Shown: positions 18,579 through 38,429 of the stretch, in pieces
How positions within the stretch are numbered: the stretch's first letter is position 1
How the letters are laid out: every line of letters starts with the position of its first letter
NCBI GenBank assembly: GCA_037176845.1
Contig: JAYKXP010000021.1
Coordinates: 186,001 to 250,000 of the forward strand
Source of the DNA: Paramarasmius palmivorus
Taxonomy: Eukaryota > Basidiomycota > Agaricomycetes > Agaricales > Marasmiaceae
Direction: 5' to 3'
DNA: 64,000 nt
The notes under the pieces: generated by a model
Told to the model about the DNA's origin: nothing
Databases searched by the model: none
What the model saw: only the letters and a program-made list of their open reading frames with translations
Translations under genes and position numbers: made by a program

Positions 18579-19215
18579 ATGCCAGACCTCCCAAACGAGC
18601 TGATTGAATCTATCATCGAAGATGTATGTTCTTTCTCTTTTAGTTGAATTAAATAAAGCCTTGTACCGACCTTGAACATTCCAGATTAGCAAGAAAGACC
18701 TGAAAACGCTGCGTCTGGTCAACAAGAACTTTTGTTCGGCGGTTACACCGCTATTATTCGCGCGCTGCATTTTTGGGGGATTTAAGACCGACGGGAGAGA
18801 TGCCCTGGTCACATATCTGAAGGAGATGGCCTCAGATACAGAAGGAACTAGAGGCAGCCTCTCTCCCTATGTTCGGGAGCTGATGATTTTCGGCCTCCTA
18901 GGGGTATTACCGTCAGACGAAGATATCAATAGCAAGCACAATTACATTCGGGATTTACTGTTCGCTGCGCTGAGGCGCTTCACTGGACTGCGAAAAATGG
19001 CGTGAGTCGTTTTCATTCTGACTCTCGGCCTGGCTTTGACAATACGAAGGTTGTACATCAATCGAGAAGAGCCGAGATGGTTATATCCCACAATCATCGA
19101 TGCAGTCGCTGAACTGCCTGGCCTTTCTGAAATATCTTTTGTTCCCAACAAGGAGAAACACCCGCTCCATCCTCCACTTCCGCTGCAGAACTTGAAAAAT
19201 ATTCGGTCGTTTAGT
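18579..19215 (+). pseudogene. F-box/LRR-like gene, array member 2: 5' part, interrupted by transposon
   Basis: Exons 18579-18623 (MPDLPNELIESIIED), 18685-19001 (KKDLKTLRLVNKNFCSAV ...) and 19050-19215, which stops inside exon 3 at LKNIRSFS where the 18-kb element begins. Joined to 37364-38047 and 38109-38429 the coding length is 1533 nt, 510 aa, with no stop or shift. Across the junction the joined protein reads IRSFSFASGPILDF, matching LRSFCFASGLIRDL in member 1. All splice sites are intact. The only visible lesion is the insertion, so it is recent. Confidence 0.88.
19208..19215 (+). repeat. Target-site duplication, left copy (CGTTTAGT)
   Basis: Eight bp directly abutting the left inverted repeat, identical to 37356-37363 next to the right one. 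Eight bp is the duplication length reported for Zisupton-type elements. Confidence 0.85.
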
Positions 19216-19324
19216 GGGGCAGCCGTCAGGTTTGATGTCCGACAAAACGTACGAACCTGGTGTTAAGGAATGACGAGCAGGGAGTCGTGAGAAGGAGAGC
19301 CCGCTCGTTTTGGTTCCACGTGAG
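19216..19324 (+). repeat. Left terminal inverted repeat
   Basis: Starts GGGGCAGCCGTCA and includes a long identical block (19262-19309, beginning GTTAAGGAATGACGAGCAGG) shared in reverse with the right end. The coordinate sum with the right repeat is constant, so there are no indels. Outermost bases (GGGGC against CGGAT) differ at three of five positions. Confidence 0.88.
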
Positions 19325-19399
19325 GTAAAATACGGTTGTAAATAATTGAGCTCACCGAAAATTTTATATTTCGAATTCTCAAGGTATCTGCGAACTCTG

Positions 19400-20540
19400 T
19401 GGTCGGATGAAAACGCCAGCTAGTGTATCCAATCTCTCGCCGTTTGGAGGAGAGGAGCGTGTGAATTGCTTACTCAACCCATCTGAAGTACACAGACTCT
19501 ACGACGCGCACCTTGTCCCGAACACAGTATCGAAATACTTCAAAGTACGTTCCTAAGCCCATGTTACCGAAATTCTCTGAATCGTTTCACACGCGCGTAG
19601 TATTTACCAACTCAGTTCCTCTACTTACCTGTGGTATTGCAAAACTCTGGCACCCAAATCAGTAGCAATAGTATTGAAGTACTGCCGGTACGTCCTTCCA
19701 GGTCTGGAGCATCTATTTACTCTGACGGTCCCGTTAACCGTAGTACTCCCTTACCTAACCTATTCGAAGCTTCAGTATCGAGATTCCTTGGTACTCGGCC
19801 GCAAGACAGCGCTAGTATCAGAATACTTTCGGTATGTTCTTCGAGCTTCTAGGGTATTTACTTACTCTGAGGACCGGCATCTCTTGTAGTAACGACATAC
19901 TACTGTATCAAGCTCTGCCAAACTGGACTTTATCACACCCCCGCATCCCACTCTTCTCTTGCGTCTCATGCTACAACCGATCACCATTCTCCAGCCGCTC
20001 TCACCTCGGCAGCTCAAAACTACTGACAGTCGATAAGGTGAGGCTTGCCTATCTTGTCAACAGCAGGATATCGAAAATGATTCGTCGCCTGATCTGTACG
20101 TCTATTATTCCAGAACTACGAGACTACCTCCCAGCATACCACAGTACTGGAAAACTCCCGTTCCCGCCCTCCTCAAGTACCAAGAAACCACAACATCGAT
20201 ATTATCGAAGTCTGGTATTGAAATACTGTCGGCATGTTCTCCAATGGCATAAAGTTTCGTTTACTCTGACCTCCATCTCCCATAGTATCTCGACACTGGG
20301 TACGCCTTCTGTCCCAGTATCCCTACGTTGCCCTTAGCCAAGCATGGTACAGCAAAACTCGGACTCATCCACTTCCTGGTATTGTTGAACCACAGCACTC
20401 CCTTCCGACAATCTAGAGTATCACAATACTCCAGCTCCTCCTTGAGACCCAACAGAGTACTGACATACTGGGAGACACATTATTGAGATACTCCGAAGGT
20501 CAGGTCCCTCTTAAACGTTGAATACCCAGATTGACCCGCT
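19400..20540. repeat. Left subterminal repeat region
   Basis: About 1.1 kb without a gene. It contains many short imperfect palindromes of the form GTATCnnnATACT or AGTATTGAAGTACT (for example near 19530, 19673, 19816, 20215, 20412). The right subterminal region contains the same kind of motif. Likely transposase-binding sites. Confidence 0.6.
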
Positions 20541-20558
20541 ATTCATCCTTCCCCGTCA

Positions 20559-21333
20559 TGCCATTCGTCTTCTCTCCCAATCGTATCGTCAAGGTCACCT
20601 ACGTCGGGCATCTATGTGAAGGATGCGGCCTCACGATTTACAGGCATAGAAAGGTGTGCGGGCGCTGCGAGATCACCTCTTACTGCGTGAGTATACAACC
20701 TTTCTCATAAAAATACTGTTTTTCACACTGCTTATGTAGAGTTTGGACTGTCGAGACGAAGATTTTGACGACCATATGCAACTATGCCAGGCAGCTCCGA
20801 CGTTCCCCGAACACTGCATGTCATCTCTCCCCGACCGACTCCTTCACTCCGCCAGAAAATTCACCAATATCTATCATGCTCGGGTTGCGATTGCTGCTTT
20901 GCATGGCCTCTTTCGCACCTTAGACCGCTTTCCCGATCTGAAAACCGAGAGTGCCGACTCCTTTCACGATCGCTTTCTTACTTTGAGTCGCCAGTCGATG
21001 TGGGTTATTACGCTACAGGAGAAGGATTGTGTGTCTCGCTTGGAGACCCCAACAGCAAAGGATGTTCACTACGTCGCTAACTCTGGGAAGCTCGTTCCAC
21101 ATTTGGACTTCCCTCGAAAGGAAATCAAACTACAAAACTTCTTAATCAACCGGAACAAAAATATATATGATCCTGAAGGAATCATTATGATGTTGGGCGT
21201 CTATGTCAACGATAAGGACGGTGTCGGGCAAGCGGATTACTCCCTCAGTGCTCCAGTACCCAACATTGCTGCACTCCAACACGCTTTCTTGGCCATCAAT
21301 CCCGAAGGAGATCTTGCACTTACTGGAATGTAG
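20559..21333 (+). CDS. MYND-type zinc finger protein (transposon cargo)
   Basis: Exons 20559-20686 and 20740-21333 give 240 aa. Residues ~23-64 form a MYND finger: CEGCGLTIYRHRKVCGRC, then a tyrosine-cysteine across the intron (YCSLDCRDEDFDDHMQLC), matching Cx2C...Cx2C...YCSx2C...Hx3C. MYND domains bind proline-rich peptides and often act in transcriptional complexes. The remaining ~175 residues have no recognised domain and end DLALTGM. It is the first gene inside the left end of the element and faces inward. Its role is unknown; a helper in transposition or in host chromatin interaction is inference. Confidence 0.75.
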
Positions 21334-22147
21334 AGGTTTGTTTCCTGTGTTCACCGATAGTCACTTTTAGCTGATGGCGTCAAATAGGCCCATTGTGTCG
21401 ATCTATATTGGTTCTGAGTCCTCGTTTGCTAAGGTGGTGTAAATAGAACGCTAGTCTACATTTAGTATTTCGACATCCCTTGCGAAAATTTCAGTCCTCC
21501 AAGCGAGAACTGTGATCCTCCTGATGTGATGCGCTACTTATATAGGGCATTGGAGGTTATAAAAGTGTTTCTCGGTGCGAATTTGTAGCTATCACCCTGA
21601 GATATTGTGCCGTGAATAGAATTCTGTATGGCGGCGCATACTTATCCTCCCAAAAGGTGTATAATAGCTTCATTGTACAGCAGTCGTATTTTCTTGATAT
21701 AGCGTCAAACCGAGTGTGATGAGCGCTTGAGCCAACGGAGGTACCCGTGTTGCCTTTTGTCACAGATGTCACTATGTCACAACATCCGACTACTACGACC
21801 ATGATGAAGCTGTCACTTTGTGTGGTTTTTGGAGGTGAGTCAACTCTCACTATCAAGGTTTTTCTCTATGCGGTCTCATCATGTCAATACTCACAGTCTA
21901 CTGGCACCATGCAGTCCCGTCAAAATCAGTCAACTATCCCCGGCATTTCTTGCGTAGTTCTGTTATACTCCAACGCCAGTTTCAAGCAGGCACATTAATC
22001 TCCAAAGGGAAAATGGTGCCAGGAGGGTTGCTGTACACTCCCTTGCATTTGGTAATTGAGGTGCGTCACTGGAAAGCCTGGTATTGAATTATACTGACTC
22101 TGTCATTCAGATGTTTATAATTCTTCCTCGTCAATATAGTATGCGTA
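21334..22147. other. Spacer between MYND gene and transposase 3' end
   Basis: About 810 bp with no supported gene; only short open frames. It holds the 3' ends of two convergent genes. Confidence 0.45.
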
Positions 22148-25100
22148 CTATCTCCCGGATACATGGCTCCTAATCCTCAACCGATTCCAAATCGACAGAA
22201 ATACTTTGGTGTACAATATGGCACGATTTTGCCTCATATAGCTCACCGCTTTTCGGATCCTTCCGATTCCACTATTTCCACATTCAGCCGCGCTCGAATT
22301 GACATGCGCCAGTGAAGCGTCTGTCTCCGTATATGTCGAGAGGAAGGATGCAGACGAGCATTTGGTATGTCCTTTAGCATGAAAACCATCGATCAAAAAC
22401 TGAGTTCTCGAAAAGAATTCAGGCTCCCGCGTCATGCAATACGGTCCCAGAGCGCAAGCGAAATCATAAATGACACGCTTTGGAGCTTTGGGCCATCTTG
22501 TGATCATAGCTGAGAAGACATCGTTTCGTCCTTCACCTTGTGGGATGCAATGGAAACCATAGCAAATGCTATGCGTACACCATGCGCACATTATTCCTCC
22601 CGTCAATCGACGTTCCCCGTACGTTGAATAGTACTTGGAACACTTCTCACCCCGTGCATCCGCCTTATCTGGTCCTTCATCCCCAGCTAGTCGCGGATAC
22701 CTAGGCCTTGCGCGGATTTGCGGAAGGCTGTAATAGCAACCTGTCTGTCGTTCTACTCAACAAAAGCTACGAAGCTTGTTAACGTGAGCATACCTTCCGC
22801 CAGTCATCCTCAGTTGCGTTTAACTGTGTTTCTAACTCATCCAAGGTCCCCTTCTTTAGATCCTCAAGGACTTCCTTTGCTCGAACATACATCCAGGAGC
22901 AAAGATCAAAAATTTCCCAAGGAACCTTTCCTCGCGAGCGCAGTTCTCCCTCCAAAACCAACAACAATGCTGGTATGTCGACAAGGGCTGTTGCGCTCTC
23001 TAGGCTCCGAATTTTGATGAATGTCTGTAGCTTCTCAAGTGCGCTCTCATTCACCATCTGCATGACAGATTCCTCTGCTACAAGCTCGAGGCAAGTTAGG
23101 CAGGCTTAGACTGGTATTTCAATTAACTTACCTGTTCGAGCAAGATAATATATCTTTTCATCAGAGCCTGGTCGACTTGGTTCCCTGGTCCGAGCACATA
23201 AGTGAGTACCTTTGCCAAAGCAGGCGCTGTCCCCTGTATTCTTGATATGAATGATGCCAACAAGTCTTGTTTTCCAGTTTCGCTTTCGGCAACACCACTT
23301 TCGACGTCGCTGTCAGCGTTAGCTGGCTCCAGTCGTTTCTTTTTACCCCCTCGTAACCAAGATACAAACTCCTTTCTCAGCGCCTTGTCCCCTTTTGCCG
23401 TCAGTGGAACCCATTGAGGGTTCTTGATGTACCTTCTTCCTCGAATTGCTGATCTTGCTTCGATATTGGTGGGTGGCCTTAAACAGTTCTTCAAGTGTTT
23501 TTTACTGAAGGCGAGTGTTACACCATCCCAGATAACGGTTTCCGGCATATCTCCACATCTCGGACACTTCATGTCGTGCTCTAGCGACTGCAGAGAGACA
23601 TACGCGAACCACGCAGCTCGAAAGAGGTCGTCTCCGATGAATTTTACTCCACGGCCTTCGTATATCCTCCCTATCGATTGAACAAATGCAGCAAATGGTG
23701 TCTCGCTGCTAACAAAACGACTGGTATATTCGTCCAAGAGCTCGTGGGTGAATAGCATGTTGTTGTTATAATTGAAGACCCCCATGTCTCTGGGTTCGGG
23801 GCCAATGTAGCAGTGATGGCGCTTTGGACACGTTGGGCAAGTTTGCAACTCTATGGTCACAGTCTTGCATTCCGTCAAGGTGTAGACTGTGCACTGTCGG
23901 TGTATCGTCGACTGGAGGGGGTCATAGCACGCGGAATGTCGGCAAGCCGTTTTGGCTCTTCCTGGTTCAAGGGCAAAAAGAGGCGGAATTTCCCGCCCTG
24001 GATGAGGACGCGCGTATAACAACTGGTCAGTGGGCAAGGTGGCCCAAGCTGGGGGGAGTATTGGTAGAAATGATACCGCTAATTCCTCGGTAAGCTCGTT
24101 CACTGTGGCCAAGATCAGCTTACTGATTCTCCTTCCTCTCTCTCACGCACCTGTTGATTCTAGGCTCTCTGAGTCGTTCGGAAGGGTCTGTTCACCCTCG
24201 TTTATCAAGCTGGTGCCTAATACCTCGCCAAGAAATCTTCTCGCTCTCCGTATGTGCAAGCAATCTACCTCTTTCTTGTCTTTGGAACATTTCCAGTGAC
24301 CCCAGCCATTCTCTAGGCCTTCATATGTGACGATAGCACGGTTATTCAGCGCCCCATTGATACCCTGTACTGAAAATCGTATGAGTACTCTGCCATCTGC
24401 CCATCCCACCTGTTCGTGCCAGAACATTACGACGGTGCCATCTATGTACGTTTCAATAATTGTTGACTGCGAGCCAACAAAGTACTCACCACGATACCAA
24501 AGATGCTCTTGTGATTTGAAATGGCTTTCTCGGAACTCGACATAGAATTCCTGATGGATACACGGCTGTGCTTGGACCCGTCCTTCACGACAGAGACAGG
24601 TCAATTGCATCCTTTCGCCGACCAAACGGGCCTCCATGTGATGCCAGATTTCCTATGTTGTGGTGCATTCAGTCAAATGAACTCCACACTCATTACTGTC
24701 TACTCTCACCTGTCCTTCACGTCTTGCGCTATCCCAACCCTGTACTACGTACAGATGCCGCCCAACGCGTTCATACCCCAGGCACCCTGCGTCCATCATG
24801 CGAACATATCGTTCAAAATTCTCGTCTTCAACCGGTTGAAAATCTTGTAGGTCGGAAGATGTTTCTGCTCCGTTTTCCGTTCCTGACACTTCGACAGAAA
24901 ATGTGCCACCAGAAACCTCTACGACGCCATCCTCTGTCGCGTTATCTTGCGCTGTCGTTACAATCAACCTGGCCCGCTTTGTACTGTGTTTCATTCTCCG
25001 CCCTTGAAAACGCCGTTTGAACCCTTTCGTTGGACTTCGAAGCCATATGCCTTCCGAGTCGCTCACATCCAGTAGCGGTGCATTGGAGGGCTGATAATCG

Positions 25101-25159
25101 TCTTCAGAGTCCGATACTACTGGCGCTTTAGAATCGGGAGATTGTGGGGAGAAACACAT
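22148..25159 (-). CDS. KDZ transposase with SWIM-like motif and cysteine cluster
   Basis: Exons 25159-24710, 24652-24490, 24441-24151, 24102-23132, 23084-22794 and 22744-22148 give 920 aa. The N-terminus is acidic/basic and disordered with a patch like a nuclear signal (GRRMKHSTKRAR). A SWIM-like motif follows (HWKCSKDKKEVDCLHI). Next is the cysteine cluster (CRHSACYD ... CTVYTLTEC ... CPTCPKRHHC ... CPRCGDMPE). The RNase-H-fold core shows the expected acidic residues in WDGVTLAFSKKH, then KCSKYYSTYGERRLTGGIMC, WCTHSICYGFHCIP, IYDFACALGPYCMTREPEFF, GFHAKGHTKCS and NSSAAECGN. The last intron must use the upstream CGACAG acceptor; the CAG four bases further would shift the frame to a stop. No disabling change is visible. 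It is divergent from the next gene, 65 bp away. Confidence 0.88.
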
Positions 25160-25224
25160 TGTCGCTTAATCACCGTGGGATATCAAACAAATTGTTCTTT
25201 TATTTCTATTTCAACTCCTCCATC

Positions 25225-26880
25225 ATGTCAACTCCCACACCTGCTGCTATCCGTCGTTCACCTCGCAAAGCCACCTCTATCCAACATGGACCTCGGCGCC
25301 AGATTTGTCAAAAATGCATTGGGCCCGATCGACACTACCGTGTTGACTGCCCACATCATAGTGGGAATGCCAAACGCGCAAAGCGGCTGCAAATGGTACG
25401 TTTCATCCAGCTTATATCTCTTATGTTGTATTTTGACACCGGTACTTAGGCCCGAGAACAAAGAGAGCAACTGGCTCAAGCTATCCAAGGAGGAGCATCC
25501 GGTGCAAGACATGAAAATGTGTTGGAACCAGCGGTACGCCTATTCTGCATTTTGGAATATATGGACTAATGTGTGGTCTCGACGCCGAACAGGTCCAACG
25601 TTCAAGCTCACCAACGAGGCCGCCTGTTGCGGGAATATTTGCTTTCCAGACTGGTGAGTGTCATATCTGTAGGCATGATCCTGCACTGACAAATGAGTAG
25701 ACTTGTTTCCTGTAACACCAGCACCGTCATCTAGTAGAGACAGCATCAACTCCCCGTTCCCAGATGGTCGTCATTCTCTCGAAATTCGACCTGGAGCTGG
25801 ACCGATAAGCGTTCCCGAACATGTAGATTTCACATTCCCTAGCCCGGAATGTTATACACCACGTACGCGAAAAGCCATCCTCCTCTGACACGTCTAAAAA
25901 GTTACAGCAGCGCCGAGAGTTCCCCGACTTGACACCGATAGTAGCCCCAACACCGAGTGTAAGACTATGTTTACCTCTCGAAAGCAAGGTTGGAGTTGAA
26001 CTTCCCCTTAGCTGGTATTGCTCCTCAGGCAAATGGCCATTTCCGTGACGCACCGGAGAACCCGCAAGACTTGTTCACTACTCAACAAACACCTATTCCT
26101 ACCAGCGAAACCTTTGACACCACCCCAAGAGCATCCCCTAGGACAGGCTCTGAGTACTCTGCCAGTCCAAACAGGCGCCGTAGGCGTCCGCCGTTAACTC
26201 TTCCAGGAGAACAACGAGTAAGGCCCAGCAAGTCTAACCCTATCTACGGACTTGTGGATGGTGCCAAACGTGGTTCAGAAAGATGGGGTTAGTGCTATAC
26301 CTCTCTTTGTCCTTATCGATACTTATTACTACTTCGGTCTCCAGAGGTAGCACGCAAAGTACCGCAATTCTCTATTCTACCCACCTGGGCGGATTGTAAC
26401 AAGAAGTTTAACGAAAAGATGCAAGCTGTCCTTCGCTTAGTACGTCACTCTGTATTTTATTTATCCGCATGCTCACAGTAACTTACTCAGGCTGAAGAGA
26501 CAGCAGACGAAACCGGCTCCTGGATATATGTGGCTGCCCAAATGCCGACGGGGCGTCACGAATATACTCACTTTGCCAGTCGTCGCCTTCGTAGAGAGGC
26601 GCCTGGTCCTGTCAATGACATGAACGCTATTGCGCACAAGATGTTTGGCGGGCTCGTTAGCTCTTGCCGCAAAGATGTCTTGCAGCTCGAGCTCGAGGTT
26701 GCCAATCAACGCACAGATCTACAGAAACTTGCAGATGAGAAAGCACTGCTCTCCCAGGCGAAAGATCATGCGGAAGCCGTTATCCAAGGCTTACGCTCGC
26801 GATTAACCAACTCAGAGCCTCTCTCTGTGGAGGAACTAACGGAACTGCTCAATAGCACCTCTGGTCGTGCGTCTGTCTGA
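25225..26880 (+). CDS. Transposon cargo protein with N-terminal Cys/His cluster and C-terminal coiled coil
   Basis: Not recognised as a known family. It starts MSTPTPAAIRRSPRKATSI, with a Cys/His cluster CQKCIGPDRHYRVDCPHH at residues ~29-46 that could bind zinc. The middle (about 25450-26290, five or more exons) is rich in Pro/Ser/Thr. The last exons encode a conserved-looking segment (FSILPTWADCNKKFNEKMQA, AEETADETGSWIYVAAQ) and a coiled coil (DVLQLELEVANQRTDLQKL ... AEAVIQGLRSRL) before the stop. Intron phases are consistent at most joins; the joins around 25750-26020 are the weakest. It shares a 65-bp divergent promoter with the transposase, so co-expression is likely. A DNA-binding accessory subunit is possible but is inference. 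Confidence 0.65.
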
Positions 26881-26942
26881 TGATGCATTCAAATAAGGTA
26901 TAGAATTAGCATACATAAAATATCATATGGGTACAAATAGAA

Positions 26943-27501
26943 CTAGTGGTTATAATGAATGAAAACTCGCTTGTCCATTTGTGATGAATGTGGGATTGGA
27001 CTGACGGATGTGGAGCTACCTCCCTTTGTTGTTTTGAACTTGAAGACAAGTGGTGCAGGGCTTCGCTCGACATGTTGTAGGGACGGCATCGATGGCCCAG
27101 GAATGTGCGGGGAAAGGGATGCGGGATGAGGCTTTGTTACAGGGTTTCTGGAATCAAACATTAGAAACCGAAACCCGATGAAAAACTAAGACGCACCCTT
27201 GACTAGCCTTGTGACGATACTTGGGTGGTTGAAGGTTTGTTGCTTCACTCATTCCGTCGTCTCGGAGGCGCATGCTGACGCAAGTGAGGGTTAGGGAAAG
27301 CTATACGTAGACCACGAGTCTACCATTCACCGTATTTCTCGCTTCCTTCGCATCCGTTCCCTAGCCCGCCGTCTGGTTTCCTCCATGTTCCTACTCGACA
27401 CATTGGGATTAGGTGCAGCTGAACGAGGCGGTATCTTACCGGGAGCAATAATTGGCACTAGCCGCTTTGGTTTCTTGTCGGTTTTTTTTGTCGGTACCCA
27501 T
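26943..27501 (-). CDS. Small basic cargo protein, module 1
   Basis: Starts MGTDKKNRQETKAASANYCS and, after a 47-nt intron, continues NMEETRRRARERMRRKREI. Two further introns lead to a Pro/Ser-rich tail (SLSPHIPGPSMPSLQHVERS, VFKFKTTKGGSSTSVSP) ending DKRVFIHYNH at 26943. The highly basic helix resembles the basic modules of the two plus-strand proteins at 29.0-30.7 kb (an A-x-A-x-NY..RN start and a run of R/K-rich helix). Such helices could contact DNA or RNA. It is tail-to-tail with the preceding gene (62 bp). An alternative open frame starting at 27650 is less likely, since it lacks the spliced homology. Confidence 0.6.
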
Positions 27502-28334
27502 CGGAGTGGGAGATGAAGGATGTTGTGGAGGTGGAGAAGAGAGAAGGAGTAAATAGCGTGACACGAAAAAAAGTCACACAAAATGGGCGGTAAGATTCTT
27601 ATTTCGGTAAGATTGTGATTGGGGTCCTCTTTTGCGAGATCTGTGGACATTATCTACCTATGATCTGTACAGTAAGTCTTATTGAATGAATGTTCGTCAT
27701 CGAAAACAATCAGGAAGTTGATCGTTCACTCAAATGGCCACTTCCTTGCAGACCACGCAACCGTAGCTACTACTATTCAAGTTTTCAAGTCTGAGTCCAA
27801 GGAGGACTTGAGAGCCATAATAACTGTCCTTTAGAGACACTTCCAACAGTGTCCGAGGCTTTTGGAATGGAATGTTGATAATCTTCATTGCATGACAGAA
27901 AATATCACAATCAACACCAATGCACTAGTTGGTTCGTAAGTTCAGATTGGTTTTGGTTCATTTTTGTGATCGTAATCTTACACAATGGTCCACTATTCTG
28001 CTCTGGACTGCTGGGTTAGGTGTACGAACGTTAACCATCACTCTAAGGCTCGTGAACTTGCTCTGTTATGGCTGATTGGTGTTCACGAATGCGATGGAGA
28101 GTGGGGTGCGTAGCGAATTTCTGGCATGGGATCACTAGGAATACTCATTCACTCTAAATAGTCCATTTACTCTCAACAGTATCTTCGAGGTTTTGGAGGA
28201 ATAGAAGACCCAGTTGACAAAGGTATCGTACAAGTACTATACGCACAAACATTGTATACAGAGAGTGAAAACGTCCACGAGGAGATTGGAACTGAACTAG
28301 TCCAAAATGTCCATTTTGCCGTCCTACTTCCTGC
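27502..28334. other. Spacer inside the transposon
   Basis: About 830 bp with no supported gene. Confidence 0.45.
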
Positions 28335-28952
28335 CTACGCATCAGAAGATAACCCATGCAACCTCTCCAGAACGGTATTCCTGGTGACAAGATCCTTCAC
28401 TTCTTTCTGTAGCTCCTCCTTCTCCATTTGTACGAGATACTTCTGCATCTTCAACATCTGAAGAGTGGCAAAAAGACAACGAATGAATGACCGTTGCTGA
28501 GCCACGGTAAGAACAAGGTCTTCGAGATTGACTGCTCAAAGGTCGGTCAGCAATATTGAAGGCAATGAAAGGGTTTGGCCCACAAAACGTACCGTTACTG
28601 GCTGGTGGAATGGGGTGGTTTGGGTTTTCAGAATGCGGTTGGCTGGAGTTTTCATAGTTCTGAACTGCATCATCTACCAAGCTTGTTCCAGTCCGTAAAT
28701 TGATATCCCCTGGGCGTGTGGTAACTGGAACTGAAGGTTGGGCGAAGAATTCATGCGGTCCGACTGTCGTTGAAAAATGAGCTTTGACATCAATCGTAAG
28801 CGAACTACTTTACCTTGGTGAGTCCTTCGATCCATTTCATAGCTATTATATCTGGAAGACGAATACATGCCTATAATTTTAGATGGCACAGATAAATGCG
28901 AGGCAATGAAGAGGTGCTGGTGCTGGTAGTACGGGAAAGAGCTGTTTGTCAT
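28335..28952 (-). CDS. Small coiled-coil cargo protein
   Basis: Three exons on the minus strand. Exon 1 ends MDRRTHQ; the middle exon has GPHEFFAQPSVPVTTRPGD and a polar Pro/Asn-rich stretch. The last exon is a helical coiled coil (NLEDLVLTVAQQRSFIRC, KYLVQMEKEELQKEVKDL) ending LERLHGLSSDA. Splicing removes stops in all three raw frames, good evidence for a real gene. The start at 28952 (MTNSSFPYYQH) is chosen as the first ATG; 28868 (MYSSSRYNSYEM) is an alternative. No known family. It is divergently arranged from the next gene with under 50 bp between start codons, so a shared bidirectional promoter is likely. A dimerising accessory factor is one possibility. Confidence 0.62.
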
Positions 28953-29000
28953 TAGTCAGTGTCACACTTCTCGTGACAGCATCTGCGCGCCTACTCTGTG

Positions 29001-29493
29001 ATGTCTCTTGCATTCTACCAAGAACAACGGTACGACTTGAAGGGACAAGACGAGGTAGAATTCCTGAGGACCCTAGGCCATACCGACAAGGAGATCTTTG
29101 AAACCCTTATTCCCATTCGCAAAAAAGGCAGACGACGCTGGTGCAATCGAACCAGTGCAAAGAAGAGCTATGAAAGGTGAGAGGTCCTTACATATTCGGG
29201 TATCCTCACTCATGCAGCAACAAAGGAGTCGCCTGGAAAACAAGGAACAGTTTCGCTTGCGCAGTGCAGCACAGCGAGCGAAGATATCTGGAATGGACTC
29301 AGATGAGAAGGAATACCGACAGAGGAAGAAGAGGGCGCAGCAACAAGCATGGAGGGAAAGAAACAGAGAGAAATTGGCTCTCAAGGCATCACTGAGACGC
29401 GCAAATAACAAGTACGTGCTGCTTTTCAGTCCATCTGATATTGCTGAATCGAGAGATAGGAAGCGAAATTGTTGCGGAGCAGAGACAAAATGA
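29001..29493 (+). CDS. Basic cargo protein, module 2
   Basis: Exons 29001-29176, 29226-29411 and 29460-29493 give 131 aa. The N-terminal ~60 residues are mixed (FYQEQRYDLKGQDEVEFLRT). The rest is a long basic helix: NKEQFRLRSAAQRAKISGMD, then SDEKEYRQRKKRAQQQAWRE and RNREKLALKASLRRANNKK. The pattern M-x-SDE-(K/R)-E ... RRxQ ... REK recurs in the next protein, so the two are related. It resembles the basic half of a bZIP without a clear leucine zipper. Probably nuclear and nucleic-acid binding by composition only. Confidence 0.6.
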
Positions 29494-29622
29494 GTTCTAC
29501 AGTACCAAAGTATTTGGATACTCCAACCAGTACGATACAATGACAAAGCCATGCACATATTCCTACCCATCAATCCATTATTTTCCCGAGCAAATCTATG
29601 TGTTGACCTCCAAGACGACGCA

Positions 29623-30651
29623 ATGGCTATCAACGACTACGATCCCGAATCCCCTCTACCTCCTTCAGATCCGCCGTCGCCTTCCTCGGACGACCTTTTA
29701 TTCAATGTCACGCCATTGCAGCCACGATTTTCTCCAAAGCTCCCTCGTAACTGGCGTGATTTCAGGACGGCGCACCAGTACAAACCTGCAAGGGCACTCT
29801 TTCGTCAATGGATTTCCCCACAGACGGCAAGAATCTCAACAGTAGAACCGGGGCCACCTATCAAGGCCTCCAAATGTATGGACAATTTGGTTTTTTGGTT
29901 GTCCTTAATTGACGTTCCATTAGCTAGGAAAGTGCCCATCGTGTACTCGTTTCAGCAAAACGAGTATAGGGAACCAGATCATAGTGAGTGTGCAGGATAC
30001 ATTCTCCAACACAGGCTCAACTGTCAAAGCGGAGGCGACAAGATTCATGGCTATTGTCAAAGATTATGTGTTACGTGATGGATCTAGGAAGAAAGGTACG
30101 CTTGGGGACCTCCGTCGTACACCTAATCACTAAATGGGTTCACAGGACATGAGAACGACGAGCCACCTGACGCTTCCCATGCTACAAATACCACCACCTC
30201 CTCTCCCACTTCCTTTGTTTCAATGGCTCAGACAGAGACGTTGGATACTGCCTCTATCCATCCATCACCGCACCAGCTGGCAAAACGTTCCTCTGAAAAA
30301 CGAATCCCCGCACGGGCTCAAGCTAAAACTGCCAATGATTCCACGACAATACCTCCCTCACAAGGCACAGCCTTGGGTCAAGCCAATAAACGAGACAGCG
30401 CCCGCGCCAATGCTCGGAATTATTACAAACGGAACCGAGTCAGGCTGCTGGCGAAAGCTGCAGAGTATCGCCAAAAGTACGTATACATCAGTCCAATAGA
30501 GACATCGTCGTGATTCTTACCTTTCTTTTTCCATAGGAAGCGTGTGCAGTTGAGCATGTGTAGTGATGAAGAACGGGAGACTCATTTGGAAGAACGGCGG
30601 CGGAGACAGAGAATGTACTCCTGCCGCTTTCGGGAAAAGCACCGTGTATAG
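29623..30651 (+). CDS. Cargo protein with acidic N-terminus and basic module 3
   Basis: Proposed exons 29623-29875, 29924-29983, 30015-30095, 30146-30476 and 30537-30651 give 279 aa. The N-terminus is Pro/Asp/Ser-rich (YDPESPLPPSDPPSPSSDD), followed by NWRDFRTAHQYKPARALFRQ. The C-terminus carries the basic module (SARANARNYYKRNRVRLLAK, then MCSDEERETHLEERRRRQRM and SCRFREKHRV at the end), related to the previous gene. One proposed intron is only 31 nt, unusually short, so the centre of the gene model is uncertain. No named domain. Same strand as its neighbours, 130 bp after module 2. Confidence 0.55.
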
Positions 30652-31091
30652 GCGACGATATATATAGTTTTGCTTGTCAATGCAATCTACGTACATTGTA
30701 CATGTAAGGTGTCAACGTTTCAACAACTAGTTATGTCAGAACGTCAATTTTTTATGCAACATCTCCTTGCAGTTCTAATTGAGTAGTACCTTCCTGATTT
30801 GGATAGAGCGCGTGTTCTGATGAAGGTCAGGGAACACGACTTGGTATTTTGGGCGATTTTTACCCAACTTGATCTTCTATGACATGTTCACCAAGTCCCG
30901 TAGATAAAAAGATACAGAACGCGATCTATTGAAGTCTTGAGATTGCGCTTGAATGAATAATGCAAGAGGGAAAGCTGAAAACAGTAGCTGGGAAATTCAA
31001 GGAGCCGATGTTGAGGCGCGTTTGTTTTAAGGGCTGACCTGTGTGACCTGTGTGACCCGCCTTCTCTTTTCATTCCACCACCATCAGCTTC
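30652..31091. other. Spacer inside the transposon
   Basis: 440 bp, no gene seen. Presumably the promoter of the large cargo gene. Confidence 0.45.
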
Positions 31092-34000
31092 ATGCACGGC
31101 AAGAAACCGACCTCTAAAAAGAAAGGCAAAGGTAAATGATCGTATATTGATACTCTCTGTGGTTCTAACAAGGGCTGAAATGTCTGTTTCTTAGGCCCAA
31201 CATCAGGTACGCATCTGTTTATCTCAGGAGGAAAGAGACTAATGACAATCGTTCAGAGCTCTCAGAGGCTCGCGAAAAGCGTAGGCTTCTGCGTATTCAG
31301 CGTACAAAGACTTCCAATCGCGCGATTGAACTCAAGGAAGGTATTGGCGAGCTGTCGACGTCGCAGGGTCCAACGACCGCGCAAACGAAGTTACTCGAGG
31401 AATTACAGAAGAAAGAAAGCGACGTGAGCCGGCTTCAGAAGGATATAGATGAGCTCACGTCGAAGATTACAAGACTTGAAGACGGAGCGGAATCGAATGG
31501 TCATAGTGCGTAAAATTTACGGATTCTGGAATTTCAGTACTTACATGTTTCAATGTAACGGCAGACTCGGTGCTGTTATCCACATTCTCCACATCCCCAA
31601 CGCCAGCATCATCGCTCAAGACCTCACAAATCGATCCAATCAGCAAACGCGGACTCCCAGCTGCTGAAGATTCAGACGTCGTCTCCAAGCGTCGCCGAAC
31701 GACATCGAGAAACGAAGCTCCGAGTCAGTGATTTTCTCAATCTGTGGTTTTCGTTTACCAATGAATAAAATCCCACGTCACAGCCCCCCTTGAAAGCATG
31801 CAGTACGAGGATTCTCCAAGTCTTCGATTACCCGATGATGTGGCAACCGTGACATATCCCTCTAATGTTTCGATGATTGGTACCACAGATGGAGGTGAGT
31901 GTCTATCCCTGTATCCCTCTCGCTCGACAGCTGATATGCTATGTTCAGATCAGTACAACGGCTATAATTTTGTTGATCCCCAGACAAGATATCAACCACA
32001 ATTCTTCGAATATGGCCCTGATGATCTTCCGACCCGAGGCCTCGCCAGTCTCGCGTGGTCTGATGAACTTTCGCCTTCAACTCTATCACGCGCGTCAAGC
32101 AACGTGGCTGATCCCGCTCAAGCGCTATCTTTCGGTTATCAACTAGATTCCCGTATACATCCTGCCTACATCGCAGATGGTGATAGCGCTGGTTATAATT
32201 ACTTACCTCCACACACGGGGTTTGTAGACGCGAAACAACCATCTTTTGGTTCGGAGTCATCTGGAATAGGTTGCAGTGGTATCTCCCCGCCCTTAAACCT
32301 GTCCTCTGGTCTTGTACCTGTTGGCGCCTCATTTTCGGGATATGAAATGGCTCCCTCTAGAGCATCTCAGAGTTCCGCGGAAAGATATGTTGCTTTTGGT
32401 ACCTCCTATCTGGGGTATGAAATGGCTCCGACCTCTAGAGCTGCATCTCAGAGCTCTGCGGAAAGCCATGTTGCCTTCGGTACCTCCTACCTAGGATATG
32501 AAATCGCTTCGACCCCTCGGGGCTCCGCGGAAAACGATATTGCCTTCGGTCCGGTCGCTCCATCAATGCCATTCGATCCCGACCATCACAAATCCGAAGC
32601 TGTGCTGCCAGCGAACATTCTCTCTCAGCCTGCCTTCACCACCCAAGACGACATTCTTCAGCCTGGCGCGGGTCCTCTTTATTCAATAAAACATGATCAT
32701 TGTGAGCAATGTTTCACTCAATTCCTCTCACATGCTGACTTTGATCATGGATTACAGTCCCTGCTGCGGATAAACGTCAAGATGCGTGTCAAGAGTCGGC
32801 GATTGTGGACAAAGCGCTGGGCGCTGACTCAAACTCGGCCGTGATAGGTACGGAATTTGCAGGTTGTAATTCCATTGAAGGTTGGCTAACTCTTTTTCAG
32901 GCCAAAAGTTGACCTTGGAAGAGGTCAAAGAGCGCTTGAAGGTGTTCGAAGACCACCCCCAATATCCCTGGCTAAACGATCCCTCCGACTCTTGGAGCAT
33001 GGCTATCGATCTCGGGGTCTCGAAGAAGGGAGAGCCGCAAGGTCTACCGACCACCGTCTCGGGTATCCCTCTGAGGACTCTGATGGAACAACTGCTTCGT
33101 TCGCCGGATGTAAAGGCTAACCCCGATGGCAGTCTACCTCTATCTTTGCTGCTAGAAAGGGGGATGGAATACTGGGAGAAGGCCGTTAGGTTAGACAAGA
33201 AGGGTTCGTGGACAATTCACAGTGGTTTCCTATTCTGACACCCACCACAGCCGACGAAAAACTATACATACAAAAGCCTGGGCAATGTGAGCATCAAGTC
33301 TTAGTTGTGATAATGACCGAGCTCATCTTTACTTTCAGCTGACCGCGCCTATAATACTGAGATGACTGGTATGTTTCGTTTCGTCTCCGTGTGTATCATT
33401 GCTAACTACTTCAATACCAGTGGCCGTCCATGAAACTTGCAAGGCTGCTATACGCGCCGGTGGTAACCCTGCAGAGTTTACATTTGGGTACAAACTCCGA
33501 GAGTGGGTTCGGAAGGATGCGCGATATGGTCGTATGGCTGGCCTTCTGTCCGTCGAGTTCGCATTGTTGGCACTTACAACGAGTAACGGCTTGTTAAAGT
33601 GTATATATCATCACCACTCTGGGAAAGACTTCAGCAAACAAGATCAGAACGCGGTCGACAACTACAACAAGATCCTCGATAAACGTGCGGCTGTCCAGAA
33701 GGAACGTGAGGCCATCCTTGCTTTCGTTACAGGGCAACAAGGGGTTGACAATATCAATGGCGGGAACTCGATGGACGGGGGGGAAGATGGCGAAGGGGAA
33801 GATGAAGGGGAAGACGAAGAGGAAGAGGGAAAGAAGGACGAGAAGGAGATAAAACTGCCAAAAATTCCCGCGTTACCGACAAGCCTGATAACTGGAACAC
33901 CAGAGCAAGCTCTACGTCCGAGGAAGGACAAGAAGGATGCAGAGGCTCAGGCTAATGCTGACTCGGAGAAGCAGCTTACGAAGAAGACCAAGAAGAAAGG

Positions 34001-34463
34001 TGGTGGTGGTCAGCAGAAGTCGAGTGACAACGCTCAAACTCAGCTGCAGCTGACGCGGCGGAAAAAAGGATACGGTGACTGCGGATGTCGCATGGAGGAC
34101 CTTCTTTCTGGATTCCTTCTCTGGAAAAGCCAAAGCGTTTACTCACCGACACTCGGTTATCGCGAGACATATGCGACAAATCAGCTTCAGCCTTTGCCTC
34201 GCACTTTCCTCTTGGACGCCCTTGATTGCCATCTAGGCCAGAAGCTCACAGAGTGCTTTGGATACGTACTCGTCGAGAAGAAGTCGGAGACAAGATATGG
34301 AGAATCAGAGTGGATCTATGTGGAGAACCGCCCGGAATGGATCCTCACAAAGGCTATCGATAGGCTCACTATGACAAGGGATGAAATTGTTGCTGCCCGA
34401 CGTGAGAAAGAGCAGACACAGAGACTTCTTGACGAGGCTGAGGATGATCAGCCATTGAACTAG
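31092..34463 (+). CDS. Large uncharacterised cargo protein: coiled coil, short repeats, unknown C-terminal domain
   Basis: About ten exons, roughly 900 aa. It begins MHGKKPTSKKKGKG (lysine-rich), then a coiled coil (EAREKRRLLRIQRTKTSN, LLEELQKKESDVSRLQKDID, ELTSKITRLEDG) and a basic patch (SKRRRTTSRNE). Codons around 32330-32560 encode three tandem ~26-residue repeats of the type SYLGYEMAP...ASQSSAE..VAFG. A domain follows with KLTLEEVKERLKVFEDHPQY, PWLNDPSDSWSMAIDLG and GIPLRTLMEQLLRSPDVKAN. Then come VHETCKAAIRAGG, a Glu/Asp-rich acidic run near 33770-33850, and a C-terminal globular part (GDCGCRMEDLLSGFLLWKS, LPRTFLLDALDCHLGQKLTE). No family recognised. Its size, coiled coil and charged runs suggest a nuclear scaffold; that is inference. 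Confidence 0.65.
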
Positions 34464-34784
34464 TCGTATTTCACTTTGTACATGTGCTTGAATATCAATA
34501 ACTTTTGCTTTGACCATCGCTCTGTTCATTCTTTAATGTTTGCTGACAAATCCTTTAACAACTCTCATGATGACCAAGGTAGAGTATCCGTAGCCATAGA
34601 AAACTCTCGGGTATGGTTTATCTGCACTTTACTTCTCGTGGATATGGTATTGAAATACTAAAAGAAAGGTCACGCATGCAGTTCTATTATACTCCAGACT
34701 CACTTATTCTTATTATTTAAATCAGACAGCGCATCAACTAGGTTTGAACTAGGTTTCATCCCCTCTTTTGCTATCGGCACGGTA

Positions 34785-35872
34785 ATGGCTCAACTTGACG
34801 GAGACTCCCTCCTGCAATGCTTGGAAACTTACCTGAATAGGAGCGGGAACCAACAGGCATCTGGATTACTCATTTTAACCAAAAGCGTTGGTGCTCGGTG
34901 CGTAACATTTAGCTATCTCTTGTTACCATATACTGATACTCCCGTAGGCTTTACCCCACCTTTTATCGCAACGTTTTTTTGTTGTCATCACGCAACTTGT
35001 ACCCGTTTCTGGCTACGCTCACAAAATACCCTGAGCGCTGTCGATTTGTCAATACCATATGGATCCGTATGGGAAGAGACAATTCGAATGCACCAGCGCT
35101 CAAGGATAGCACTTATCCTCGAAACTACCCCTCGCGTCATTTCCTTCCGGTTTATATCTCCAGGCGAGATATCCAGAGTCTCTCAAAAGCCCTTAGCATG
35201 GTTTCCGGAACCCTCACTCGTCTCACAATCGCAGCAGGGCCACATTATCCCACACTCCGTGGAAGTCTTGCCGCCATGGATTTTCCGAACCTTGTTGAGT
35301 TGGAAGTAGCCGTGGATCTGATACTCTTGCGTAGTTCGGGACATGCTTTTGAAGGGATCGATCGCTGCCTCAAACTATGCAAACTTCGTCTCGTCTACAG
35401 CTCCGAAGATGGGACAACAGAAGTTTTGCCGTATCAGGACTTCACGCAGCTCAAGCGACTCACTCACCTTTACATCTCATATTGGTCTGAGTCTCGCATT
35501 GATGTGGAGCACAGTTTGGTCAATCTGCGTGTCCCAGACTCTGTAAAGGTGGTCGTCTTGGAGCAGGATGCCGGACTGCATCTTCCAATCAGGTTCGACA
35601 GCCTTGGACACTATACGATCCATCCGAGAGTTGTTTTCGTGATGGAGAAGGGGATATTGGAGCAATTCAACCGCGTTTTGGGGCATACGCCCCGTATGCG
35701 TACTGTTCATGGGTCGTGCTTGGTGCTGGACCGTGCCACAATCAGAGAGGATTACATGTGGGAGAAAGCAGAGCAGAAGGTACATGAACGATGGACTCTG
35801 TTCAACCGAATCCCGCCTTCAATCCTATTGCGCAAATGGACTGATGGCCGTGTTATTTACAAACTACAGTAG
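34785..35872 (+). CDS. F-box-family-like/LRR protein carried by the transposon
   Basis: Exons 34785-34897 and 34948-35872 give 345 aa. The N-terminus (DSLLQCLETYLNRSGN, SVGARLYPTFYRNVFL) resembles the post-F-box segment of agaricomycete F-box proteins ('LYpsfYRnVfL'). LRR-like strands follow (LTRLTIAAGPHYPTLRGSL, FPNLVELEVAVDL, KLCKLRLVYSSEDG, LKRLTHLYISYWSE). A canonical F-box is not visible, so Skp1 binding is doubtful. It is the last gene before the right subterminal repeats. It is not a copy of the interrupted host gene, so it was probably acquired earlier or elsewhere, or is a domesticated cargo gene. Confidence 0.65.
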
Positions 35873-35889
35873 TAGTGTTATTACTTTTG

Positions 35890-37246
35890 TATAGGTTATC
35901 ACTCGAGTACAGGTTGATTACCCGTTCAGAGTATAGACAATGCCAGTTGCCTAATTGTTTCTATGTCCTCGAAACTCTACAGTACAAGAACTATCGTCTA
36001 CACACGAATGGCGAGGTGATGTGGATAAAGGCTCGCGAGGTATTCTCCTTTTCCTGTGATAAGAGTACATAGGTAGGTGTGGAAAGTGTCCTATGAGCAG
36101 CAGAAGCTCGAATTTGATTGTGGTATGTGTGGTCGGGACAGAGAAACCGGAGGCAAACATAAGTTGTATCGGTGCCTAAAAATAGATCCGTAGAGTATCG
36201 GCATACTCGGATGAGTGGCGTGCTGGCGTTGGAGTATTCTAGTACTTGCGAAGGCTTCGCGGAAGCGCCAGAGTTTTTCTTTGCTCTGGGAGGTGGACCG
36301 CAGAGTATTGAGACACTGTCACAAGCGGCATAGCGGTGGTGTAGTATTTTCGTACTTGAGGAGCTATGATGGGAGCGCCAGAGTTTTTCTTTACTCTGGG
36401 AGGTCGAGCGTAGAGTATCAACATACTCTGACGAATTGCGTGTTGATGCCCTAGTGCTCCGATACTTGAGGAGGTATGATGGGAGCCAGAGTTTTTCTTT
36501 GCTCTGGGAGGTGGACCGCAGAGAATCGAGACACTGTAACAAGCGGCGTAGCGGCGGTGTAGTATTTTCGTACTTGAGGAGCTAGGAGCGCCAGAGTTTT
36601 TCTTTACTCTGGGAGGTCGAGCGTAAAGTATCAACATACTCTGACGAATCGCGTGTCGAGGCCCTAGTGTTCTGATACTTGATGTGGTCAGAGTAAATCA
36701 ACACTCCACAAGGTTCAAGAACGTACTGAAGATATTTCATTACTACCATTATCGGCTCCTTCTGTGAGCGCCAGAGTATTCCGCAACTCGCCATCAATCA
36801 CTCTGCGATCTTTTACGTTCTGGGAGATGGGGTAAATGAGCACTGTGAGGACAAAGGTCAAAGTGTAAAGATATTCTGAGTGACGGAGGGACATACCGAT
36901 ACCGAGTACGCCTCGTCATCTGCCTTGCGCCAGTATCCCAATACTTTGGGGGACTGTTGCCAGGAGCTAGAGTAAAACAATTCTCTAGACGCGTAGACAG
37001 CTTGGGATTTAGATACCCTGGAGTCTGAGGGGCGTATCTTGAAGTATTTTGGGACTGGCGGTAGAATCCAAGAACGCAGAATCGCTGTACTTCGCGCGTC
37101 AAGTTGGATAAGCAATTCTCACGCCCTTCTCTCACTAATGTACCCACCGCCTCTCAAAACTTCCTAGTTCTCCAATACCCCCAGGATTTAAAAATAAAAT
37201 AAATAAAATATGAGGTAGCTGCATTGATTTACAATCGCAATTTTGG
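35890..37246. repeat. Right subterminal repeat region
   Basis: About 1.35 kb without a gene, full of motifs such as AGTATCAACATACT, GTATTTTCGTAC and GAGTATCGGCATACTC. These mirror the left subterminal region. Includes the tandem duplication at 36265-36690. Confidence 0.6.
36265..36690 (+). repeat. Alternating tandem repeat (A-B-A'-B')
   Basis: Four units of about 100-110 bp start at 36265, 36375, 36485 and 36588. Each begins with GCCAGAGTTTTTCTTT followed by CTCTGGGAGGT. Units 1 and 3 share GTAGTATTTTCGTACTTGAG; units 2 and 4 share GTATCAACATACTCTGACGA. So an A-B pair of about 215 bp was duplicated as a block. Confidence 0.8.
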
Positions 37247-37355
37247 CTCACGTGGCATCAGAACGAGCGGGCTCTCCTTCTCACGACTCCCTGCTCGTCA
37301 TTCCTTAACGCCAGGTTCGTATGTTTTGTCGGGCATCAAGAGTGACGGCTATCCG
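37247..37355 (-). repeat. Right terminal inverted repeat
   Basis: Reverse complement of the left terminal repeat without gaps; its outer end reads CGGATAGCCGTCA on the minus strand. Confidence 0.88.
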
Positions 37356-37363
37356 CGTTTAGT
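37356..37363 (+). repeat. Target-site duplication, right copy (CGTTTAGT)
   Basis: Identical to 19208-19215 and directly follows the right inverted repeat. Confidence 0.85.
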
Positions 37364-38429
37364 TTTGCCTCTGGGCCCATTCTTGATTTTACGCACGCTG
37401 AGGAAGCCATCTTTCATCCCGTTCAGCGTCTTTTGACACATTCCACCATCAATCAGCTCTCATTACTCTTCTACATCCCAATGCCGCGAGTGCCACGGCA
37501 CGATTTACGCTCGATCTTTCCAGAGGTGTCAACACCGGACTTGCAGGTCCAAGAACTCACCATCGAAGGAATCATAACCCACATTCCACCTACCTACCAA
37601 CATCATTTTCGGCATCTTACGCGGCTATCCATCATTGTTCCTCAGCAGACTTCATCGGCGCCCAGCGGCTGGCAAAGTATGTGGAGTTGCTTTCAGACCG
37701 AGAAAGTACACCTGGAGTATTTGCATGCCAAGCTATCCGACGGCTTGACCACCTTGGACATGTTCTTGTACCTTGCATCATATAGCGGTCTTCACGAGTT
37801 GCACCTCTCGGGACGTCCTATCGAGATGCCACTAGCTCAGCAAGCTCGCGATCTCCTTTACCGCGATGTGCTTCGTCAGCATTCGTCGACTCTCCAAGCC
37901 TTCACTGTGTCTTTGTTCGTTCAGAACTGGGATTTTGTTCCACAGCATGGACGGGCTTTAGAGAGTTATGGGCAAAACCTCAAGTTTCTTCACTTATGTC
38001 TAGATTTTTCTCAGACACTAGGTCCCGGTGCTGCGAATGACCCTTGGGTGAGTAGTTAAATTCCGGTTCTACTTAATCCCTTGATCTGACTATCACTCGC
38101 AATATCAGGTTGTTCTTCTCAACGCTGCCATCAATCTTCCAAATCTACATACTCTGTTTCTGACCATCTTTGACTCTCGGAACCGGGAGTACTCAAATCC
38201 CAATCAGCACCATTCATACCTTCGAAGCATAAAATTACCTCCACCCGCGAAACCTCGAATACTCGGGACCCCACTGCTGTTGCAGAAGAATCATATCGCT
38301 GTTGGGGGAGAGAAGCATCATTGGGTTTATGAGCTGCAGCAGGTGGATGGCGGTGATTTTGCGTTTCGCTTGGTTACGTCGGTTGCTCCAAGGGATAGTG
38401 TCCCGAAGTTCAGTTTATCGTGGTTTTAG
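37364..38429 (+). pseudogene. F-box/LRR-like gene, array member 2: 3' part, after transposon
   Basis: Continues exon 3 (37364-38047: FASGPILDFTHAEEAIFHPV, then LRR-like strands such as LQVQELTIEGIITHIP and LHELHLSGRPIEM) and exon 4 (38109-38429: VVLLNAAINLPNLHTLFLTI ... VYELQQVDGGDFAFRLVTSV), ending in a normal stop. Sequence order and splice phases match member 1. The fragment alone lacks its N-terminus and promoter, so it is unlikely to make a useful product unless the element excises. Confidence 0.87.

Follow-up and report, generated by a model that had tools for sequence, protein, structure and literature searches.

Paramarasmius palmivorus is a plant-associated mushroom. One of its F-box-type genes is split by about 18 kb of DNA, at positions 19216..37355 of the 64-kb stretch that was analysed (hereafter the window). 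An obvious question is whether this DNA is a complete transposon, how long it has been in place, and what the genes it carries besides a transposase are doing there. We assign a probability of roughly 0.78 to the reading that it is a complete, recently inserted cut-and-paste DNA transposon of the CxC4 clade of the KDZ (Kyakuja-Dileera-Zisupton) superfamily, and that it is a multi-component element with regulatory proteins of its own.

Ends, target site and interrupted gene

The element is flanked on both sides by the exact 8-bp direct duplication CGTTTAGT (19208..19215 and 37356..37363), assigned from the sequence and from sister copies. A search of the 64-kb window finds this octamer only at 19208 and 37356, flush with the element, and does not find its reverse complement anywhere in the window. 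The original prediction had included this duplication, abutting the element on either side, as well as ungapped inverted repeats of ~107 bp; the latter are present and, when measured, extend over 111 nt (19221-19331 and 37240-37350), imperfect but ungapped at 90% identity. The terminal repeats as a whole occupy 19216..19331 on the forward strand (outer end GGGGCAGCC) and 37240..37355 on the reverse strand (outer end CGGATAGCC, read inward). Their outermost 5 bases are unequal, GGGGC versus CGGAT, and the same inequality is found in all five complete copies known from this genome. Sequence comparison also identified subterminal tandem repeats with a unit of ~105-110 bp at 36188..36692 on the forward strand, and two ~3.3-kb relatives, C43 and C232, have similar units internal to each end.

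Further copies with different 8-bp duplications had been proposed as a check, and four more complete relatives are present in the genome, one of 19.6 kb (C18) and three of ~3.3 kb. Copies ending at other boundaries, or insertions elsewhere without the duplication, had been raised beforehand as possible objections; all five complete copies share the same boundaries and family of ends, and all five have an exact duplication (8/8 bases), different in each case. This count covers complete copies and excludes six further loci at which one end is visible in the examined DNA. C18 contains genes A, B, D, F, and G in the order of the window element and is 72% identical to it at the nucleotide level across 2.7 kb, the longest stretch that aligns. 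These copies bear on whether the locus might be a chimaeric assembly in which an unrelated 18 kb has been set between two flanks. Nothing in favour of this was found in the one assembly available. A single gene continues across the two flanks and the sister elements end alike, which makes an assembly join at the inverted repeats unlikely. Each sister copy is bounded by ends of this kind and by an 8-bp duplication of its own, and the 19.6 kb of C18 hold these genes in matching order, so we give a chimaera almost no credence.

The 5' part of the host gene lies at 18579..19215 on the forward strand (exons 18579-18623, 18685-19001, and 19050-19215), and its 3' part at 37364..38429 on the same strand, running to 38047 and followed by an exon at 38109-38429. 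Removal of the element and one duplication does rejoin this gene in frame for 510 codons, as had been claimed, with the empty site giving a four-exon frame of 510 amino acids joined between codons 176 and 177. The restored protein matches its tandem neighbour (16683-18399) at 239 of 503 aligned residues (47.5%). The match to this neighbour at the junction, described earlier as exact, is nearly so, with RSFSFASG aligned to RSFCFASG: seven of the eight residues are alike and one differs.

If decay is taken to be neutral, with 0.05-0.15 indels per substitution, the absence of disabling changes from the 510 host codons bounds the divergence since insertion to ~0.014-0.027 substitutions per site, and the 334 codons downstream of the insertion alone bound it to 0.021-0.040. 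The earlier claim of a recent insertion stands insofar as the unbroken host frame, its sole support, speaks for it, but the nearest relative found, C343, is only ~88% identical, and searches of the genome with the element's ends and transposase found no copies above that value. C343 is separated from the window element by a dS of 0.25-0.40, so no recent burst of the subfamily is seen. The one assembly contains no empty allele, only two 100% half matches. Alternatively, the insertion could be old, and the host frame could have stayed open because the split halves remain in use. Both halves are indeed open and resemble the neighbour, and, relative to C343, the element belongs to an old sequence lineage, but the start of the 3' half falls within an exon, the two 8-bp copies are identical, and the host frame has 0 disabling changes in its 510 codons, all of which makes an old insertion distinctly improbable.

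The transposase and comparison with known elements

Gene B (22148..25159, reverse strand) encodes a CxC4-KDZ transposase of 920 amino acids, according to a spliced model and to the annotated relatives P0003 and P0005, from which the start of exon 5 was set. Its six exons (25159-24710, 24652-24490, 24441-24151, 24102-23132, 23084-22794, and 22744-22148) are free of stops. The transposase is thus intact, and with the ends, the duplication, and the empty-site frame it bears out the original prediction of a complete KDZ transposon. The CxC4 domain (PF18717) is recovered with an E value of 6.9e-42 and 142.8 bits, above the cut-off of 26.9 (E 1.6e-41 on a 911-aa spliced model of the gene). The KDZ domain (PF18758) is recovered on the exon frame with an E value of 1.1e-5 and 25.7 bits, slightly below the curated cut-off of 26.6 (E 1.2e-4 and 22.3 bits on the 911-aa model), and the close relative P0005 has both domains. 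An alignment with 108 relatives shows D816 and D841 in 109/109 rows and E876 in 108/109, and these residues would constitute the catalytic triad. The SWIM-type Cys/His residues are preserved in the same comparison, and the KDZ core has a dN/dS of 0.03. The annotated relatives also suggest that transposases can be hidden behind database labels such as HMG or SWIM-type protein.

A KDZ catalytic domain, a CxC4 cluster, SWIM-type cysteines, and 8-bp duplications are shared with the CxC4 clade of the KDZ superfamily; duplications of this length are reported for Zisupton and for the Dileera family Zisupton-1_PGr (PMC12730594). The window element differs in belonging to an 18-20 kb type with about six other conserved genes and unequal outer 5 bases, and is a new variant within this known superfamily. 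KDZ1-KDZ3 of Cryptococcus neoformans, which are active and have been seen to jump, are also large KDZ elements with inverted repeats; they measure ~9-11 kb, with inverted repeats of 139-241 bp and duplications of 8 bp (KDZ1) or 4-8 bp (KDZ2 and KDZ3) (PMC12810828). In contrast to the CxC4 window element, they are CxC1 and about half its size, and the cited parts of that account make no mention of a comparable gene kit.

Fungal TET+ Kyakuja, Zisupton, and Dileera elements resemble the window element in carrying an extra gene, but theirs is a TET/JBP dioxygenase, thought to counter silencing (PMC12730594). Pfam searches of 18 ORFs and 6 gene models from the element (E values up to 1) and of the F proteins annotated by NCBI (E values up to 5) gave no TET/JBP match, although divergent PE-type proteins would escape both. 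The Kyakuja lineage of the Laccaria type does not fit the 8-bp duplication, the inverted repeats, and the GGGGC/CGGAT ends; the two Laccaria families have 7-bp duplications, CA..TG ends, and no inverted repeats (PMC12730594). Starships of the Ascomycota (PMC12134995) are likewise large fungal elements with accessory genes, but they use a tyrosine recombinase, whereas the window element has a KDZ transposase, inverted repeats, and an 8-bp duplication. The Pfam matches of the 18 ORFs and 6 gene models include no tyrosine recombinase captain, and assignment to the Starships was rejected.

Genes carried besides the transposase

Eight genes besides the transposase had been predicted; the second full-length copy and, for F, an NCBI protein support about six, and two of these six are weak. 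Gene A (20558..21333, forward strand; exons 20558-20686 and 20740-21333) encodes a 240-aa MYND-finger protein with a zf-MYND domain (PF01753; E 2.2e-5, 24.9 bits, cut-off 22.7), and its homologues in C343, C18, and C48 give dN/dS values of 0.20, 0.15, and 0.17. For gene C (25225..25449, forward; MSTPTPAAIRRSPRK...), a small gene with divergent transcription, the model covers the beginning and is incomplete; it is 66% identical to C18 over 68 aa. Gene E (28338..28809, reverse) is a possible small gene, with a 129-aa model and a weak homologue in C18 (38% over 53 aa). Gene F (29001..34463, forward; NCBI annotation VNI00_006777, named BZIP domain-containing) encodes a 1363-aa protein with two conserved blocks close to its C-terminus and no Pfam match. 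Its relatives in a shared-word protein search, which scored the top-sharing candidates and may miss some, were two copies in the P. palmivorus genome and none else. A structure prediction for the C-terminus was unusable (pLDDT 37), and a solved-structure search with the gene F alignment gave no match. Gene G (34785..35872, forward) encodes a 345-aa protein labelled F-box/LRR-like from its appearance, with no Pfam F-box match; it is 64% identical to its C18 counterpart, with a dN/dS of 0.15, and a solved-structure search with its alignment yielded nothing beyond six weak T-box matches, none with an E value better than 0.12.

Gene D (26033..26880, forward) is the companion of the transposase. 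Its last two exons (26345-26439 and 26491-26880) are well supported, but the stretch PPLTLPGEQR..., conserved in relatives at 26188-26253, falls partly within a modelled intron, and the 5' part of the model is therefore probably wrong. The gene has a dN/dS of 0.055-0.10. A shared-word protein search, which may miss relatives and used a query with a probably incorrect N-terminus, found two proteins from the P. palmivorus genome and a partial one from Moniliophthora perniciosa.

Tentatively, D may have a MADS-box-like DNA-binding fold, which structural ranking favours and profile comparison does not. In hhalign comparisons of the D profile with six MADS sequences, 91/100 and 33/60 shuffles scored as high in the two set-ups. 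Compared as single sequences, four of four D proteins have a score against SRF that 0/300 shuffles reach, versus 9-32/300 for MCM1 and 153-294/300 for MEF2A. With no MADS Pfam match and a profile test that was not significant, identification of D by sequence as a MADS-box protein with an SRF-type domain was rejected. A solved-structure search with the D alignment gave no match. SRF-type CC(A/T)6GG sites are absent from the ends of the five complete copies; in whole elements there are none in the window element or the three short copies, and two inside C18.

Inheritance and possible role of the kit

The presence of these genes elsewhere in the genome was assessed at 54 transposase core matches of the clade, all stop-free. 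Gene D lies beside at least 42 of them, at +3.5 to +5.3 kb and divergently, on the strand opposite the transposase, where about 0.5 of the 54 loci would be expected by chance to have it within 6 kb. Gene F accompanies at least 18 and gene G at least 17, 15 of them in the same orientation, and the order is mostly kept. Among the matches listed, 12 loci showed no D, 36 no F, and 37 no G; these misses may partly reflect fast divergence or contig ends, making the counts minima, and F and G may be dispensable for some members of the clade. The dN/dS values indicate purifying selection on A, D, and G, those based on C18 being rough, with dS near or beyond saturation.

Could the extra genes instead be a passive load that was picked up from the host by accident, as happens in many large cargo elements, and that does nothing for the element? 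At most of the transposase loci no F was seen, and the same is true of G, for which a host F-box/LRR-like family is the probable source: 32 of the 49 G loci listed are not within 16.5 kb of any of the 54 cores, 29 of these being 19-35% identical and the remaining three (C103, C79, and C144) adjoining an F gene. However, 42 of the 46 D loci listed are near a transposase core within a narrow range of offsets, two more (C103 and C384) are near a degenerate core or a CxC4 match, the order and strand of the kit are mostly conserved, and dN/dS is far below 1, so that we consider passive cargo unlikely. Compared across loci, the non-transposase genes are shown to be an inherited, mostly ordered kit and not chance cargo. 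Because relatives carry them in the same order, they give the impression of functional components of the element. The host itself could select for some of them. Among the matches listed in the literature on KDZ elements, no description of such a kit was found.

From the superfamily, we expect that the transposase would bind the ends and the subterminal repeats, excise the element, and make an 8-bp staggered insertion. The kit would serve the element, most likely through regulators of its own expression, of end recognition, or of silencing. In this scheme, DNA would be bound by F, a basic protein, and by the possibly MADS-like D, and other proteins would be recruited by the MYND protein A and the F-box-like G. 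The ~3.3-kb elements with the same ends were likely moved in trans. Plant En/Spm and Mutator elements encode a second regulatory protein besides the transposase, and the role proposed for the kit is similar. En/Spm, Mutator, and VANDAL are alike in this pairing, but their proteins are unrelated to those of the window element, whose kit is larger and putatively regulatory. Two-protein VANDAL elements are mentioned in PMC12730594. A bolder version, which has some chance of being right but on which we would not rely, is that the CxC4 clade is a multi-component system in which the transposase cooperates with proteins encoded by the element: D, an obligate partner with a MADS-box-like DNA-binding fold, and MYND, bZIP-like, and F-box-like proteins that are optional, attach to the subterminal repeats, and overcome silencing. 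On this view, dozens of lineages in the one mushroom genome would have received the kit as a unit.

Fungal KDZ elements are abundant, and the complete ones described in the papers cited here (PMC12730594, PMC12810828) are the TET-bearing families and the three Cryptococcus elements. With a complete insertion, defined ends, an age bound, and an ordered kit, the window element is a concrete candidate for an autonomous element. Its natural short derivatives with the same ends would be usable in transposition assays, with D as a testable second protein. The association of these genes also suggests that some "hypothetical" mushroom genes adjoining CxC4 transposases are transposon genes.

Element ends and copies in the genome

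The transposon occupies positions 19216-37355 (18,140 bp) of the window, which is C21:186001-250000 in a 68.3-Mb assembly of 393 contigs, assigned by its protein names to Paramarasmius palmivorus. Both of its borders abut CGTTTAGT, which has no other occurrence in the window on either strand, and its inverted repeats align without gaps at 90% identity across 111 nt, the outermost 5 bases being unequal between the two. With the left inverted repeat as query, 15 genomic places were matched. Five elements were counted as complete, having both ends in the DNA examined: that of the window, one of 19,628 bp on contig C18, and three shorter ones at C47:331164-334422 (3,259 bp), C43:81396-84681 (3,286 bp) and C232:37014-40318 (3,305 bp). 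Six others, for which that DNA contained a single end (C343, C113, C2, C48, C68 and C103), were excluded from this count. In all five complete elements the outermost bases are GGGGC on one side and CGGAT on the opposite side, and each element is flanked by an exact 8-bp duplication of a different sequence. Copies with other boundaries, or insertions elsewhere lacking the duplication, had been named in the original prediction as evidence that would speak against it; all five copies instead share their ends and have duplicated 8 bp.

The closest relative found is the C343 element (loci L010, L028 and L029; C343:11058 onward), with 88% identity across the left 8 kb. Its match ends after the left 8.2 kb, with none further on, and the right half of this element is therefore different or replaced. 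The elements of about 3.3 kb on C43, C47 and C232 have identical end types and a mutual identity of 91-94%. The body of the C43 element is inverted relative to C47 and C232 while its outermost 5 bases keep their orientation, a pattern expected of recombination between long inverted repeats.

The empty site in the host gene

Removal in silico of the element and one duplication yields a 4-exon gene encoding 510 aa with no internal stops, exactly the 510 codons that had been predicted, in which the junction falls between codons 176 and 177. The restored protein is identical to its tandem neighbor (16683-18399) at 239 of 503 aligned residues (47.5%), and the residues at the junction read RSFSFASG versus RSFCFASG in the neighbor. 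Assuming neutral decay and an indel ratio of 0.05-0.15, the lack of disabling changes in 510 codons limits the divergence accumulated after the insertion to about 0.014-0.027 substitutions per site, or 0.021-0.040 for the 334 codons downstream of the junction alone. No empty allele of the insertion site was found in the assembly. Adjoining the tandem F-box-type pair are three near-alike genes (8835-9785, 11892-12843 and 15233-16184; two on the plus strand, one on the minus), which by their look may be of the asaB/GA4-desaturase kind.

The transposase

The transposase (gene B) is encoded on the minus strand by six exons and comprises 920 aa. Its CxC4 domain match is strong (142.8 bits) and its KDZ profile match weak, the 25.7 bits falling just short of the 26.6-bit cut-off. 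Close relatives, such as P0005, a Marasmius crinis-equi protein 54% identical to it, have both KDZ and CxC4 domains and an identical exon join; the NCBI model of the window's transposase, VNI00_006773, ends ahead of the KDZ core. Among 7,996 candidates scored, 235 related proteins were found, with many Agaricales among the 120 listed, and alignment with 108 of these relatives showed that the conserved D816, D841 and E876 and the SWIM-type Cys/His are retained. Genome-wide, 54 of 69 core matches had near-full query coverage and form the set used here, 15 shorter fragments being excluded. None of the 54 has a stop within the match, and CxC4 is present at 51. Cores at C8:975928, C9:35179 and C313:10148 (52-54%) make up another CxC4-KDZ clade, which has no D, F or G match nearby.

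The accessory gene kit

The non-transposase genes A (MYND-finger), D (divergent from the transposase), F (annotated by NCBI as BZIP domain-containing) and G (F-box/LRR-like by eye) form a mostly ordered kit, which recurs across the genome in searches with these genes and the transposase core. In gene models built independently for the window and C18, F and G are homologous with alike exon patterns, and the downstream exons of A and D agree; for D, the 5' end of the model from the window is questionable, and for A, exon 1 is missing from the C18 model although tblastn matches both of the gene's exons. Matches were reduced to one row per locus (D 46 of 66, F 21 of 39, G 49 of 52, A 24 of 30), the other rows coming from additional exons or fragments of loci already counted. 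D lies on the opposite strand, 3.5-5.3 kb off, at 42 of the 54 cores, with about 0.5 D loci expected by chance within 6 kb. F is downstream of at least 18 cores and G near at least 17 (downstream in the same orientation at 15 of 17), both lower bounds because such searches miss fast-evolving genes. A was found at 10 of 54 in the range tested, roughly 2-3 kb off in 8.

Reshuffled kits occur at C27:3106-18234 and C252:9994-24130, where G is inverted and has changed sides relative to the transposase. A second MYND-type gene follows G on the opposite strand in C18 and in several further elements (in C18, loci L025-L026, C18:123840-124424, 31% identical to A); none is present among the gene models of the window's element. 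The C103 element (L043; C103:69807-88218) looks like a mosaic: identity to the genes of the window's element is 58% for F and 66% for G, but its transposase core has stops and is just about 40-50% identical.

Comparison of the window's element with C343 gave dN/dS ratios of 0.20 (A), 0.10 (D), 0.03 (KDZ core) and 0.16 (CxC4 exon). With C18 the ratios were 0.15 (A), 0.055 (D) and 0.15 (G), rough values since dS is 1.7-1.9; in this second comparison, for the KDZ core and F, synonymous sites are saturated and thus give no ratio. F has an open frame, 52-58% identical within aligned blocks. A, D and G have been maintained as proteins since the copies diverged.

Earlier work had established the KDZ superfamily, its 8-bp duplications and the existence of large KDZ elements. 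Cryptococcus KDZ elements have been observed jumping, KDZ1 with 8-bp duplications (PMC12810828), and Zisupton and one Dileera family also duplicate 8 bp (PMC12730594), a feature that the window's element shares with all three. An F-box precedent in a fish Zisupton is cited in PMC12062965. KDZ elements are common in Marasmius oreades (PMC8290104), and a study of that species used a transposable element library whose longest members reach about 42 kb, their type being left unnamed in the passage concerned (PMC9674265). Our literature search, in which subscription papers were thinly covered, found no description of this gene kit.

The window holds an element with its ends, duplication and intact transposase, sister copies elsewhere, and a mostly ordered kit in which A, D and G are under selection. 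By analogy with the KDZ superfamily, it would move by cut-and-paste with an 8-bp stagger. D and F may bind element DNA, and A and G may act via host proteins, in both cases to control expression or silencing.
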